Assembly (NCBI GenBank): GCA_020029625.1
Contig: JAIBJP010000002.1
Location: 1-35,218 of the forward strand
Source: Actinomycetota bacterium
GTDB lineage: Bacteria > Actinomycetota > Thermoleophilia > Gaiellales > Gaiellaceae
Direction: 5' to 3'
DNA length: 35,218 nucleotides
Position 1 is the stretch's first letter. Each line of letters opens with the position of its first letter. The translations under genes were made by a program, and so were the position numbers. The notes beneath the pieces are model-generated. The model ran no database searches and was not told where the DNA came from. It saw nothing but the letters and a program-made list of their open reading frames with translations. Below, in pieces: positions 3,290-26,091 of the stretch.

Positions 3290-4393
3290 CTAGCGCTCGG
3301 CGAGCGCTTCGAAGACGAGCCGCTGGAAATGCTGGATGAGGTGCTCGCTGGAGAGGAGCAGGCGTCCCTGCGGCACCATCCCGGTGTCGAGTCCACGCTG
3401 CACCGCCTCGACGAGCCCGCTGTCCTCCAGCCCCACCTGGTTGGCGAAGTCCATCATCTCGCGTGCCCGCTCGTCCGAGACCTCCTCGTAAAAGAAGTAG
3501 TCGGTCGCGCCGACTGAACGACCTGGCCCGTTCGGCCTCGTGGCGTCGACCGAGAGGTTGCCAGGCCCCGCTTCGACGTTGATCGTCGTGTTGGGCCACA
3601 AGAGGTGGTACTGCGCCTGCGTGATCTCGCCACTCGGGTTGTAGGGAGCTTTGCCGTCACCCGCCAGGGCTGCGGGACGGGGCGTCCCGAACTGGCTGGC
3701 CACGAGCCCGTCCGAGCTGAGCAGATACGCGTCCGGATCCACGTCGATCACCTTGCTGAACCCCGGGTGAGCGACCGGGCAGTGGTAGCACTCGAGGTAG
3801 TTCTCGACGGCGACCTTCCAGTCCGCGGAGATCTCCCACTCGCGCCGCTCGCGGAAGGTCAGGCGGCTCATGTCGACTCCGCTCGCTTCCACATGCCCGG
3901 GCAGGGGCCCGAGAGCCTCGGCAAGCCCAGGGACATCGAGATCAGGGTTGACGAAGACGAGCGGCCCCCAGGTATCCACCTGGACCGGCAGGAGGGAAAA
4001 CGCGTCGAAGTCGAAGTCCGGCTCCCGCTCCGAGCGCGGCGCCGTTCGCAGCGCTCCGTCGAGGCCGTAGGTCCAGGCGTGGTAGGGACACTGGAGCGTC
4101 TCGCGGTGCCCCGCTCCCGTCGCGACGATGTGCCCCCGGTGGCGGCAGACGTTCACGAACGCGTTGACGGTTCCCGAGCGGTCGCGCGTGACGACGACCG
4201 GAATCGTCCCGGCGACGGTGGTGAACCAGTCTCCCGGCTCCGCGACCTGGTCGAGCCGGCCGGCGTACTGCCACGTGCGCCGGAAGATCGCGTCCTGCTC
4301 GCGGCGGAGGATGGCAGCGTCCGAGTACCAGCTCGCAGGGAGCGTGGCGCCTCCTGCGAGGGCGTCACGTAGTTCCTGGACGTCGTCGATCAC
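3290..4393 (-). CDS. Rieske non-heme iron oxygenase alpha subunit, quaternary-amine oxygenase-like (CMO/GbcA/CntA type)
   Basis: Rieske CRHRGH...CPYHAW; mononuclear iron motif ENYLECYHCPVAHPG; EDSGLVEAVQRGL. GTG start overlaps upstream stop (GTGA). Confidence 0.9.
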   Translation of the reverse strand: MIDDVQELRDALAGGATLPASWYSDAAILRREQDAIFRRTWQYAGRLDQVAEPGDWFTTVAGTIPVVVTRDRSGTVNAFVNVCRHRGHIVATGAGHRETLQCPYHAWTYGLDGALRTAPRSEREPDFDFDAFSLLPVQVDTWGPLVFVNPDLDVPGLAEALGPLPGHVEASGVDMSRLTFRERREWEISADWKVAVENYLECYHCPVAHPGFSKVIDVDPDAYLLSSDGLVASQFGTPRPAALAGDGKAPYNPSGEITQAQYHLLWPNTTINVEAGPGNLSVDATRPNGPGRSVGATDYFFYEEVSDERAREMMDFANQVGLEDSGLVEAVQRGLDTGMVPQGRLLLSSEHLIQHFQRLVFEALAER

Positions 4394-5562
4394 GGCGCCT
4401 CCCAGCCCACGTAGGGCGCGATCCCGCGCTTGAAAAGCCCTCCCGCGACGATCACGCGCTGAATCTCGCTGGTGCCCTCCCAGATGCGGTCGACACGAAG
4501 CTCGCGGAAATGGCGCTCGGCCGGGTTCTCCTGCATGTAGCCGCGCCCGCCCAGGATCTGGACCGCCCTGTCGGCGACCCGTCCAGCCATCTCCGATGCG
4601 TAGAGCTTCGCCATCGCCGCCTTTCCGTGGACGATCTTGGCGTCCGGGTTCACGTCGAACTCGTGCGCGGCGTGGTAGGTAATCAGTCGCGCCGCGAGAA
4701 GCTCGGTGAGCGAGTCCGCCAAGGGGAATTGTACTCCCTGGTACTGGGAGATCGGCTGCTCGAAGGCGCGGCGCTCGAGTGCCCAGGCCCTTGCCAGATC
4801 GATGAGGCGCTCAGCGGCCCCGCAGCAGCGGGCCGCAATCATCAGCCGTTCGACGGTGAACCACTTCCGGGCGCCCTCGCCGCCGCCGCCCCTGATGCGG
4901 TTCGCCTCGGCCACGCGGCAGTTCTCCAACCGGAACTCGGGGTGAGCGTAGAGATAGGGGTCGTGCATGAAGCGGGGAGTGCGCGTAAGCGTGAGCCCGG
5001 GAGCGTCCTTGTCCACGAAGAAGAGAGTCTGCTCGCCGTCCGCGAGCGCGAGCAAGACGAGGTAGTCGGCCTGGTCGCCGCCGGTGACGAACCACTTCTC
5101 GCCGTTGAGGACCCAGTCGTCCCCGTCGCGCTCGGCAGTCGCAGCGATCGCGCCCACATCCGACCCTGCACCGGGCTCGGTGATCGCCCACGCCTCCTGG
5201 CGCTCGTGTCGGAGGGTCGGCAGGACGTAGCGCTCGAGCTGCTCAGGGCTCGCCAGCTCGAGCAGCTCTCGCGGCGCCCGCTCGCAGACGATGAAGCCGA
5301 GCCCGTTGGTCGCCTTGCCGCCCTCCTCCTCGATCGCCACCTGGGCGAGCATCGGCAGGTCGGGCCCGCCGTGCTCGGCGGGAACGTTGTAGTTCGAGAA
5401 GCCGGCGGCCCGGGCCTTGTCCTTCAGGTCGTGGATCTCGTGGCGGTCGATCTCGCCCCGCTCGGCGATATGCGCCTCGGCGGGATAGAGCTCCTCCTCG
5501 ACGAAGCGGGCGGCGCGCGCCTTCAGCTCGCGAATCTCGGGGGGAAGCTCGGGAACGATCAC
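4390..5562 (-). CDS. Acyl-CoA dehydrogenase
   Basis: WAITEPGAGSDVGAI, WVLNGEKWFVTGG, ILGGRGYMQENPAERHFRELRVDRIWEGTSEIQRVIVAGG. Confidence 0.94.
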   Translation of the reverse strand: MIVPELPPEIRELKARAARFVEEELYPAEAHIAERGEIDRHEIHDLKDKARAAGFSNYNVPAEHGGPDLPMLAQVAIEEEGGKATNGLGFIVCERAPRELLELASPEQLERYVLPTLRHERQEAWAITEPGAGSDVGAIAATAERDGDDWVLNGEKWFVTGGDQADYLVLLALADGEQTLFFVDKDAPGLTLTRTPRFMHDPYLYAHPEFRLENCRVAEANRIRGGGGEGARKWFTVERLMIAARCCGAAERLIDLARAWALERRAFEQPISQYQGVQFPLADSLTELLAARLITYHAAHEFDVNPDAKIVHGKAAMAKLYASEMAGRVADRAVQILGGRGYMQENPAERHFRELRVDRIWEGTSEIQRVIVAGGLFKRGIAPYVGWEAP

Positions 5563-5951: not shown

Positions 5952-7061
5952 TCAGGCCTCCTCGACGCTCGGAACCTCGTCCGCGGGAAGGACTCGCAAT
6001 GCTTCGGCGGGAAGGTGGATCTGAACCGGCGTCCCTTGCTCGTAGGGGGCGCCCTTGCCGGTGTTCTGAATGAGCGCCTGAAGCGCATCTCCCGTCGCAG
6101 CCCGCACGATGACCTGGATCGCCGAGCCCACGTAGACGACTCGCTCGACCATACCTGGGAGCCGGTTGGGGCCGCTCGGCGCTCCGTGCGGCTCGAGCTC
6201 GACGCGTTCGGGCCGGATGACGATCTTGGCGGGCCCGGTGACGTCGGCCGCGCCGGCGCTTCCCAGGAGCTCGAACCGATCGAGCTCCACACGGCAGGCC
6301 CCATCGACCGCCCCCGTGGCTGTGGCGTCCATCAGGTTCGAGGCCCCGAGGAAGTCGGCGACGAACACCGTTTGTGGATCTTCGTAGACGTCCTGAGGGG
6401 CGCCAACCTGCTCCACGCGCCCGGCGTTCATCACCGCCAGCCGGTCCGACATGGTTAAAGCCTCCTCCTGGTCGTGCGTGACGTAGAGGAAGGTGATCCC
6501 GACCTCCTGCTGGAGCCCCTTCAGCTCCAGCTGGAGCGCCTTGCGCAATTTCGCATCGAGCGCGCCTAGAGGCTCGTCCAGAAGGAGCACGGCCGGGTTG
6601 AGGATGAGCGCTCGAGCGAGCGCGACACGCTGTTGCTGACCGCCCGAGAGCTGGGAGGATTTGCGCCGCTCGTAGCCCGTCAGCTGCACGAGCTCGAGCG
6701 CTCGCGCAACCCGCTCCTTGATCTCCGCCTTCGGGCGCTTGGCACGCCGGAGGCCGAAGGCCACGTTGTCGAAGACGTTCAGGTGGGGGAAGAGGGCGTA
6801 GTTCTGGAAGACCGTGTTGACGCTGCGTCGATGCGGAGGGGTGTACGCCACATCGGTGCCGTCGAGCAGGATCTGCCCCTCCGTGGGCTGCTCGAAGCCT
6901 GCGATCAGGCGGAGCGTCGTCGTTTTGCCGCATCCAGACGGTCCGAGCAGCGAGAAGAACTCGCCGGCGGGAATCTCGAGGTCGATGCCGTCCACCGCGG
7001 TGACGTCCGCGAAACGCTTGGTCAGCTCGACCAGCTGTATCTCTCCGCGCGCCACCGTCAT
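5952..7061 (-). CDS. ABC transporter ATP-binding protein, spermidine/putrescine (PotA) type
   Basis: Walker [13 protein letters not shown], signature [15 protein letters not shown], Walker [14 protein letters not shown]-terminal TOBE-like region. ATG at 7061 overlaps permease stop (ATGA); the longer ORF start at 7277 is unlikely. Confidence 0.93.
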
Positions 7062-21890: not shown

Positions 21891-22781
21891 TTACTCGAGC
21901 ACTGGCGGCGCCGAGCCCTCGATCCACTTCTGCGCGGCCTCGTCGAGGGTGCCCGCTTCGCGGAGGTTCGCGATCGCCTGGTTGACGCAATCGCGGAGCG
22001 GGTTCCCCTCCTCGAAGACGAGGCCGAAGTACTCCTGCCCCTCCGCCGGAAGGCGCCCGACCGCCGTCGCGTTCGGCACCTGGACGGCCGTGACGTAGAG
22101 AGAGGTGGGGTAGTCGACCACGATGCCGTCGATGTTCCCGTTCTTGAGGGCGCGGATGGCGTCGTTGTTCGTGCTGTAGACGTTCGGGTCCTTACTCGGC
22201 TGGATGGTGGCGACGATCGCGTCGTAGCTCGTCGTCCCCAGCTGGGCCCCCAGCTTCGCGTCCTTCAGGTCCCCGAGCGAAGTTGCCTTGGCGAACTTGG
22301 AGGACTTCAGCGTCACGACCGCCTGCTCGACGTCGTAGTACGAGTCGCTGAAATCGAGGGCCTGATCGCGCTCCGGGCTGTAGGAGACCTGGTTGATGTC
22401 GAAGTCGAAGTCCTTCGGGCCCGGCTTGAACACGTTGTCGAAGGGAACGACGACCCATTTGACCTCGTCGTCGGAGAAGCCCAACTCGTTGGCCACCGCG
22501 TAGGCGACCGCGCCTTCGTAGCCCTGCTTCGTCGGCTCGGTGGTCGGATCCCACGGGGCACCTTCGGCGTCCTGGAACCAGGGCGGGAAGGCAGGATTGT
22601 CCGTTGCGATCGTGAGCTGCCCGGAAGTCTTGAGGATCAGCTGGTCCTTGGCGCATGGATCGGGCGCGGCCGCCGTCTCCGTGCCCGCCGCTGTCGGCGT
22701 GGCCTCCTCGTCGGCTCCGCACGCGGCTGCCGCGAGTGCGAAGACGGCGAGAACGAGGGTCAGGACGAGCTGTTTCCGCAT
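21891..22781 (-). CDS. Polar amino acid ABC transporter substrate-binding lipoprotein
   Basis: Signal peptide with lipobox MRKQLVLTLVLAVFALAAAAC; SBP_bac_3-like body; SD GAAGGAGAC before ATG 22781. Confidence 0.92.
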   Translation of the reverse strand: MRKQLVLTLVLAVFALAAAACGADEEATPTAAGTETAAAPDPCAKDQLILKTSGQLTIATDNPAFPPWFQDAEGAPWDPTTEPTKQGYEGAVAYAVANELGFSDDEVKWVVVPFDNVFKPGPKDFDFDINQVSYSPERDQALDFSDSYYDVEQAVVTLKSSKFAKATSLGDLKDAKLGAQLGTTSYDAIVATIQPSKDPNVYSTNNDAIRALKNGNIDGIVVDYPTSLYVTAVQVPNATAVGRLPAEGQEYFGLVFEEGNPLRDCVNQAIANLREAGTLDEAAQKWIEGSAPPVLE

Positions 22782-22822
22782 CGGGGTCTCCTTCGGCCGG
22801 GTCGCCGAATCTACCAGGAGGA

Positions 22823-22863
22823 GCGCTTAACGCGCGCTTAACCGCACGCAACCCGCCCTTAAG
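22823..22863. repeat. Four phased GCGCTTAAC-like direct repeats (22823, 22834, 22844, 22855)
   Basis: GCGCTTAAC (22823-22831), GCGCTTAAC (22834-22842), GCACGCAAC (22844-22852), GCCCTTAAG (22855-22863); offsets 11, 10, 11 bp. Confidence 0.7.
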
Positions 22864-22874
22864 CACCGCGGCGC

Positions 22875-22880
22875 TATAAC
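22875..22880 (+). promoter_or_regulatory. -10 box TATAAC for leaderless htrA-like gene
   Basis: TATAAC ends 7 nt before GTG 22888; no SD. Confidence 0.6.
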
Positions 22881-22887
22881 CGTTGGC

Positions 22888-24051
22888 GTGGAGGTAGGCG
22901 CCACGCGCATCGGTGCGTTGCTCGTCGCCGGCGTACTCGGGGGCGGCGTCGCCGTCGGCATCGACCAGGCCGTCGGGGACGAAGGCGGCACGACAGTCAT
23001 CCGCGAGATCACCGCCGGCACTGCCCAGTCGACCGCGTTTCGCAATTCGAATGGCAGGACGATCTCCGACATCTACGCCGGCGCCAAGGGCGGCGTCATC
23101 CAGGTTCTAGCGACGTCTGTTGTCTCGGACAACCCCTTCTTCGGCTCCCAGCCGTCGCGGGCGCTCGGCTCCGGCTTCGTCATCGACAAGGCCGGACACG
23201 TCGTCACGAACTACCACGTCATCGAGGGCGCCTCCAAGGTCGAGGTGAGGTTCTCCGGCAACGACGAGATGCCGGCGACGGTCATCGGCCGGGACCCGTC
23301 CACGGACATCGCCGTCCTGCGGATCAAGCGTGCCCAGGGGCGCGCGCTGACGCCGCTCGAGCTCGGGAACTCGGACGTCGTCCAGGTGGGTGACGCGGTC
23401 GTCGCGATCGGGAACCCCTTCGGGCTCGAGCGGACGGTGACCGCGGGAATCGTCAGCGCGCTTCAGCGAGAGATCACCGCTCCCAACGGCTTTGCCATCG
23501 ACCGCGTCATCCAGACCGACGCCGCGATCAACCACGGCAACTCCGGCGGCCCGCTCCTGAACGCCGACGGCAGAGTGATCGGCGTCAACTCGCAGATCGA
23601 GACCGAATCGGGCGGGAACGTCGGCATCGGTTTCGCAGTCCCGATCAACACCGTGAAGGACGTCGTCTCGCAGCTTCTGGAAAACGGCAAGGTCGACCAC
23701 GCGTACATCGGCGTGGAGATGGCGACGATCACGGCCGAGCTGGCGTCGAACGTGCGCCTGCCGGTCGACCAAGGCGTCCTCATCCAGCGCGTGCGGACGG
23801 ACAGCCCGGCGGCCCAGGCCGGACTGCGCGGCGGCACGACGCAGGTGGTCGTCGACGGCGAGAGCTACCTCGTCGGCGGCGACGTGATCACGAAGGCGGA
23901 CGGCCAGCGGATCGAATCCGCGGAGCAGCTGCGGAGCGTAGTCACTTCGAAGCAGCCGGGCGACGAGATCGCCCTGGAGATCCATCGCCAGAACGAGACG
24001 AAGGAAGTGACCGTCAAGCTTGGGCGCCAACCGAACACCCCAGTCGGATGA
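22888..24051 (+). CDS. htrA: HtrA/DegP-type serine protease with C-terminal PDZ domain, membrane-anchored
   Basis: His ([10 protein letters not shown]), Asp (STDIAVLRI), Ser ([11 protein letters not shown]) triad; PDZ region [11 protein letters not shown]...[13 protein letters not shown]-terminal hydrophobic anchor. Confidence 0.93.
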
Positions 24052-24198: not shown

Positions 24199-25230
24199 GT
24201 GATTCCGCACGCCTTCGGGCAGAGCGAGCCGTGGTCGGTGGGGATCGAGGAGGAGCTCTTCGTGCTCGAGGCGGGCTCCCTGTCGCCCGCGCCGTTTCCT
24301 CCCGCGGAGCTTGACGGCGTTCGGCTCAAGCACGAGCTCTTCGCTTCGGTCGTCGAGCTCAATACCGCTGTGTGCGGCTCGGTCGCGGACGCGACGCGCG
24401 AGCTCGCTGGGCTCCGCACCGTCGCGAAAGAGCTGGCGGCCGACGCCGGACTGGTCCTGGCCGCTGGCGGGACGTGGCCGACGGCGTTTCCCGAGGAGCA
24501 GGCGATCACGGAGGACGAGGGCTTCCGCCGCTTCGTCGAGTACGCCGGGCCCTCGGCCCGGCGCCAGTACTGCTCCGGGTTGCACGTCCACGTCGGGGTG
24601 GCGAGCCCTGAGGCCTGCATGGGGGCTCTCGAGGCGGTGCTTCCGTGGCTGCCGCTCGTGCTCGCCGTCTCGGTGAACTCGCCGTACGTGGCCGGACGGG
24701 AGACCGGGCTCGCCTCCGCCCGGGCTGAGATTCTCTCCCTGCTGCCGCGCAGCGGGGCGCCGCCCGTCTTCGACTCCTACGCAGGGTGGGAGGCATTCGC
24801 GGAGCGGCTCCTCGCCCTCGGCCTCGCCGACGAGTACACGCGTATCTGGTGGGACGTCCGCCCTCACCCCCGCTTCGGGACGCTGGAGGTGCGGATGCCG
24901 GATCAGCCCACGCGCCTGGAGAACACGGCGGCTCTGGCTGGGCTCGTGCACGCGCTCGTTCGTTCGTCGGAGGCCGGCCCGGCCGCTGATCGTGGCGCCT
25001 ACGCCGAGAACCGCTGGGCTGCTTTCCGCTTCGGTCGCGAGGCGCGTCTCATCCACCCCGACGGGACGCGACTCGTCGCAGTGCCCGAGCTGCTCGACGA
25101 GCTCGCCGGGCGCGTCGGCGCCGCCGCCGTCGATCCCGTGCGGGAGCTCGACCAGGCGGGCGAGCAGCTACAGGTCGGGCGCGCCGAAGGTCTTGAATCG
25201 CTGTGCCGGCAGCTCGTCGCGCTTACGTAA
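24199..25230 (+). CDS. Carboxylate-amine ligase, glutamate-cysteine ligase GCS2/YbdK family
   Basis: WSVGIEEELFVLEAGS, CSGLHVHVGV, IWWDVRPHPRFGTLEVRMPDQPT. Confidence 0.9.
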   Translation: MIPHAFGQSEPWSVGIEEELFVLEAGSLSPAPFPPAELDGVRLKHELFASVVELNTAVCGSVADATRELAGLRTVAKELAADAGLVLAAGGTWPTAFPEEQAITEDEGFRRFVEYAGPSARRQYCSGLHVHVGVASPEACMGALEAVLPWLPLVLAVSVNSPYVAGRETGLASARAEILSLLPRSGAPPVFDSYAGWEAFAERLLALGLADEYTRIWWDVRPHPRFGTLEVRMPDQPTRLENTAALAGLVHALVRSSEAGPAADRGAYAENRWAAFRFGREARLIHPDGTRLVAVPELLDELAGRVGAAAVDPVRELDQAGEQLQVGRAEGLESLCRQLVALT

Positions 25231-25491: not shown

Positions 25492-26091
25492 GTGCGGGCC
25501 GTGAGCGAGAGCAGCACGCCCGAGGCCGAGGCACGGCGCATCGCCGAGGAATCGCGCGACCGCGCTCGTTTCGAGGAGGAGGTTCTGGAATTGGCGGATC
25601 AGGTCTACCGGGTGGCCCGGCGGCTCGTCTCGACACGCGAGGAAGCCGAGGACCTGGTACAGGAGACCTACGCCCGGGCGTTCCGCAGCTGGCGCTCCTA
25701 CACCCCGGGAACGAACCTGCGCGCGTGGATCTTTCGCATCCTCACGAACCTCAACATTGATCGCGGTAGGCGCGAGCAGCGGGCGCCGGCGACGCAGCCG
25801 ATCGAGGAAGGCGACTACTTCCTCTACAACCGCCTCGAGGCCGATTCGGGGGCAGAAGACGAGGAGCGGATCGTCGAGCGCCTCTCCCAGGACGGGATCG
25901 TGGACGCGCTCTCCGCGGTGCCTCACGATTTCCGCGACGTGATCGTGCTCGTCGACATCGGCGACTTCACGTATCAGGACGCGGCCCAGATCCTCGACAT
26001 CCCGATCGGAACCGTGATGTCGCGACTCCACCGCGGCAGGCGTATCCTCAAGCAGCAGCTGGCGGAAGCGGCCGTCGGGGAGGAGGCGTGA
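25492..26091 (+). CDS. sigR: ECF sigma factor, SigR/SigH-like
   Basis: Region 2 AEDLVQETYARAFRSWRSYTPGTNLRAWIFRILTNLNIDRGR; region 4 FTYQDAAQILDIPIGTVMSRLHRGRRIL. GTG 25501 is an alternative start. Confidence 0.9.
   Translation: MRAVSESSTPEAEARRIAEESRDRARFEEEVLELADQVYRVARRLVSTREEAEDLVQETYARAFRSWRSYTPGTNLRAWIFRILTNLNIDRGRREQRAPATQPIEEGDYFLYNRLEADSGAEDEERIVERLSQDGIVDALSAVPHDFRDVIVLVDIGDFTYQDAAQILDIPIGTVMSRLHRGRRILKQQLAEAAVGEEA

Follow-up and report, generated by a model that had tools for sequence, protein, structure and literature searches.

What occupies the space between htrA and the amino-acid ABC operon that diverges from it, and which of the two promoters does it serve? The window, i.e., the whole 35,218-nt stretch of DNA analysed here, carries four phased repeats at this position, which an earlier note had read as the binding site of a response regulator co-controlling envelope proteolysis and amino-acid uptake. 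The htrA gene (22888–24051, plus strand) encodes a trypsin-like domain and a PDZ domain (Pfam PF13365 and PF13180). Its divergent neighbor (21891–22781, minus strand) encodes an amino-acid solute-binding protein (SBP_bac_3).

Anatomy of the Array

The repeats lie where they had been placed, with units starting at 22823, 22834, 22844, and 22855 on the plus strand, so that the start-to-start spacing in the window sequence is 11/10/11. Units 1 (22823–22831) and 2 (22834–22842) share the sequence GCGCTTAAC, unit 3 (22844–22852) reads GCACGCAAC, and unit 4 (22855–22863) reads GCCCTTAAG. Unit 1 falls in a conserved column block of the alignment of relatives described below. Unit 2 is the most conserved of the four, its CTTAA being invariant in a 21-sequence alignment; the AAC of unit 3 is likewise conserved. 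The core of a unit is proposed to be [T/C]AAC or TTMA. Both -10 hexamers that had been named are present, TATAAC for htrA at 22875–22880 (plus strand) and TAGATT for the ABC operon at 22813–22808 (minus strand). Unit 4 is 11 bp upstream of TATAAC, at the -35 position.

Could the Array Be Chance?

In a window this GC-rich, one expects 0.71 exact 9-bp repeats at 11 bp, and hence such a repeat is not rare by itself. The word TTAA occurs five times in the 35-kb window (at 6455, 22827, 22838, 22859, and 32629), three of them inside the array and within 36 bp of one another. A repeat of this kind containing TTAA was found in none of 100 randomised windows, and the same was true of three TTAA units in the register of the array. 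Allowing up to two mismatches, GTTAAG-N5-GTTAAG is found once in the window, against 0.17 expected. At one mismatch or fewer the array is the sole match to this pattern in the 1.47-Mb assembly, and a reversed control pattern also matches once, so the bare-pattern scan is weak evidence. Finally, a matrix built from relatives alone gives the window site a score of 33.0, the best of 60 randomised windows reaching 18.5. The four repeats are not a product of chance.

Conservation at htrA

The array travels with htrA. Orthologues of about 55–69% identity repeatedly carry it, beside differing upstream genes, and about 20 genera have it in front of htrA. When 27 loci are aligned on the -10 and columns are numbered relative to the T of TATAAC, the conserved columns are -48 to -44, -37 to -33, -27 to -23, and -16 to -12. 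Columns of the unit cores hold 1–1.8 bits of information, as against at most 0.35 in the 20-odd bases further upstream. The distance from array to -10 is fixed within about 2 nt in most loci, and the TATAAC itself is nearly invariant.

The earlier note had staked its reading on conservation at orthologous htrA promoters, and conservation is what is found. In a leave-one-out scan of about 8,000 positions per locus, the array ranks first in 22 of the 27 loci. A sequence-only model of 21 promoters, here called R1, has a single match in the genome of the window, at htrA (E 1.9e-7). Among the 103 genomes of the family, R1 matches at htrA in 50 at E ≤ 1, of which 29 had not been used for the model; 15 of these held-out genomes match at E ≤ 0.01. 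Genus g9 has no R1 matches, and its htrA still has CTTAAC-N5-CCTAAT and a TATAA box. The htrA promoter of one relative (G066) has about six phased NNNAAC units rather than four.

Comparably strong arrays are nearly absent elsewhere, and the four-unit array occurs once in the genome of the window. At E ≤ 0.001, R1 has 26 matches at htrA and 2 at other places in the 103 genomes. One of the two (in G064) is an htrA whose start is cut by the contig end (tblastn 66%). The other (in G043) is probably another htrA, judging from synteny with a glutaredoxin-like gene, the end of which also lies upstream of htrA in two further loci (L129 and L138). Matches away from htrA number 51 at E ≤ 1, about the chance level over 103 genomes. 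Those noted in relatives are at genes for an esterase, a DMFA2_C protein, and a small membrane protein; most are near chance level, and they may be further targets. Outside the family, R1 has no matches in the order at E ≤ 0.05, and a class-level search of 399 genomes gave six matches near E 0.01, about what chance would yield, none being a clear htrA promoter. To summarize, the array is conserved, functional-looking, and htrA-specific, and by this comparison it belongs to htrA, whatever gene flanks its other side.

Three features of gene context were seen along the way. A glutamate-cysteine-ligase-like gene (window 24199–25230) adjoins htrA downstream and is often kept near it, on either side. 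An ECF-type sigma factor gene (25492–26091) is also nearby, with an orthologue near htrA in loci L116 and L118. In one genus (G001 and G002; loci L186 and L198), a full four-unit array with a TAGAAC -10 precedes the gene of an uncharacterised small membrane protein, with a polX-like gene running divergently from it; the membrane-protein gene may be a second target there.

The htrA Promoter and the Probable Action of the Array

The GTG start of htrA is 7 nt past the -10, and in all 27 aligned loci the first in-frame start is 6–10 nt from it. This is the distance expected of leaderless transcripts, and htrA is therefore probably leaderless, as had been supposed, here and in its relatives. A search for sigma-70 promoters detected none with an acceptable -35 at the array, which bears out the view that neither promoter has a good one. 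An Rfam search likewise found no structured RNA family there, and a structured RNA is rejected as the explanation.

The geometry is that of OmpR/PhoB-type sites, as the earlier note had proposed: head-to-tail direct repeats with a period of about 11 bp, in an 11/10/11 spacing kept in relatives. The position of the site, with its last unit 11 bp from TATAAC and no -35, also fits a promoter activated by a regulator of this type. We consider it fairly likely, on these grounds, that the array is a tandem-dimer operator at htrA, where an activator of the OmpR/PhoB family takes over the role of the -35. In this model, two tandem dimers of the response regulator would occupy the four head-to-tail units, all on the same face of the DNA. 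The dimer nearer the promoter would stand in for the missing -35 and recruit RNA polymerase to TATAAC, so that under envelope stress htrA would be transcribed with essentially no leader. Three elements of the model are inferred: a response regulator as the binder, activation and not repression as its effect, and the stress signal. Activation is the likely mode, a choice made on position only.

A protein bound at the array could instead act negatively, keeping RNA polymerase out until some signal lifts the block. The overlap of units 3 and 4 with the -35 position would suit this, since repressors also act there. However, a repressor would find no -35 to block here, and the nearly constant distance between array and -10 resembles that in promoters served by activators, CiaR among them; repression is unlikely.

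The Divergent ABC Operon

Is the array also an operator for the ABC operon? The claim that it covers both -35 regions is right in position for htrA. On the ABC side, a minus-strand GTTAAG-N5-GTTAAG lies 12 bp upstream of the -10 TAGATT, near the CiaR spacing of 10, and this is what speaks for a shared operator; yet the units are oriented opposite to the ABC promoter. The -10 itself is probably real, since orthologues of the solute-binding protein (the best at 74% and 70% identity) have retained a TA(G/C)NNT hexamer as their -10, shortly before the start. These orthologues do so without an array, which is absent upstream of all those examined. Moreover, none of about 109 fetched loci related to the solute-binding protein has htrA beside it; many of these loci reach at least 1.5 kb upstream, and some less. 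Co-control of amino-acid uptake is unsupported for these two reasons, and a shared operator governing both htrA and the ABC operon is quite unlikely. The transporter is probably a chance neighbor of htrA here.

Candidate Regulators

Seven OmpR-type (PF00486) regulators are encoded in the assembly that holds the window, which is 78% complete and so lacks about 22% of the genome. They are C84 (PhoB-like, beside pstS), C102 (MprA/PrrA/PhoP-like, divergent from a second htrA), C103 (MtrA-like; L202, 8071–8751), C71 (RegX3/WalR/RpaB-like), C98 (heavy-metal-regulator-like), and two further OmpR-type regulators, C7 and C33.

The apparent units in the family differ from promoter to promoter: TTCACC at pstS, TTAGC/TCAGC at the C102 gene and the second htrA, TTAAC at htrA and, as read by eye, TCTCAT at C98 genes. 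The PhoB-like and MprA-like regulators are both disfavored because their apparent sites differ from the htrA array. These differences suggest that the OmpR-type regulators of one clade are separable by their repeat units (TTAAC, TTCACC, TTAGC, and TCTCAT), which would offer a route for assigning regulators from sequence.

By known motif, the MtrA-like C103 is the closest candidate. The six best-scoring arrays (G016, G017, G054, G000, G023, and G053) are all among the ten genomes that have its orthologue, a coincidence for which kinship may be the reason. As the sole regulator it is weakened, with an orthologue in 10 of 103 genomes versus an htrA array in 50. Orthologues of C71 and C7 are present in most of eight relatives surveyed. 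The candidates that remain are C71, C7, C103, or regulators in the missing part of the genome.

Gene position does not narrow the choice. The loci checked have no regulator gene closer to htrA than about 1.5 kb, the exception being a divergent HK-RR pair about 0.75 kb away in G039 that was not seen in other loci, and a regulator linked to htrA is accordingly rejected. The TTAAC array is absent from all regulator promoters examined. Thus, there is no clue from linkage or autoregulation.

SARP/BTAD-type activators have the same winged-helix domain and are thought to bind 11-bp repeats, so the binder might be one of these rather than a response regulator. One off-target R1 match in a relative does lie between a BTAD gene and the DMFA2_C gene. 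Set against this, no BTAD protein scores over the cut-off in the 78%-complete assembly of the window, and we regard a SARP as very unlikely. An OmpR/PhoB-family response regulator remains the preferred binder.

Comparison with Known Systems

The nearest described architecture is that of the CiaR promoters of Streptococcus (CiaRH), which read NTTAAG-N5-TTTAAG, then N10 and TATAAT; htrA is among the most strongly regulated CiaR genes, in a regulon of about 15 promoters (PMC3091779). The two have in common the target htrA, TTAAG/TTAAC hexamers with an N5 spacer, and a last unit 10–11 bp before a TATAA -10. The likeness is one of resemblance only. CiaR sites have two units in contrast to four here, most units here finish with AAC when read on the coding strand, the phylum is different, and outside htrA the present array is hardly ever found. 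None of the regulators in the assembly is assigned as a CiaR orthologue; those compared resemble MtrA, RegX3, and PhoP/PrrA. Unit 4 is the only one to end in TTAAG on the coding strand, and the proximal layout of the window is CTTAAG, eleven bases, TATAAC, i.e., N11 where CiaR has N10. One might propose that this family of Thermoleophilia keeps a near-single-target response-regulator circuit for htrA, with its own four-unit operator, which is independent of streptococcal CiaR–htrA and convergent with it in hexamer, spacing, and -10 geometry; in this full form, the proposal is tentative and on balance doubtful.

The MtrA box of Actinobacteria (RTAACAATttnRTAACAAT; GtnAcC-n5-GTnAcn; PMC3353115, PMC13189361) shares with the array 11-bp direct repeats and a TAAC core, and an MtrA-like regulator is encoded in the assembly of the window, but the first base of the pentamer here is not G. 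The WalR/VicR box, TGTWAH-N5-TGTWAH (PMC4168254), likewise consists of hexamers with an N5 spacer, its TGTAAC shares the TAAC core, and C71 is of a similar type; the 5′ TG of that unit, however, is not conserved in the htrA array.

The Pho box is made of 11-bp direct repeats; a PhoB-type regulator binds them head-to-tail and makes contact with sigma (PMC4415409). Could the array be such a box, with the PhoB-like C84 as its regulator? The 11-bp period is shared, and some copies of unit 4 read GTTCAC. Against this, the core sequence differs within the same bacterial family, the TTCACC units of pstS promoters being clearly unlike TTAAC, and PstS of the type in this genome was found in 31 of 103 genomes only, the array being more widespread. 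We regard a Pho box as extremely unlikely. The 11-bp TTCACC repeats at pstS promoters across the family constitute a clade-specific Pho box of their own, and in the genome of the window GTTCAC/GTAAC repeats at 11 bp lie upstream of pstS (C84; L200, 1950–2000).

On these sequence comparisons, we claim a class for the array no further than that of a putative OmpR/PhoB-type operator. A literature search for response-regulator binding motifs in Thermoleophilia turned up no such site. The array gives a concrete candidate site through which an envelope protease may be controlled in a large, mostly uncultured group of Thermoleophilia.

In mycobacteria, the OmpR-type regulator MprA controls the HtrA protease PepD (HtrA2). 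A similar pairing is seen here in C102 (L201, about 4360–4526), where the second htrA is divergent from the MprA/PrrA/PhoP-like regulator gene. The apparent units of that regulator are TTAGC/TCAGC, not TTAAC, and the C102 regulator does not adjoin the htrA of the window. The intergenic region between the C102 regulator gene and the second htrA carries its own array of CTAAGA/TCTTAG units at about 11 bp.
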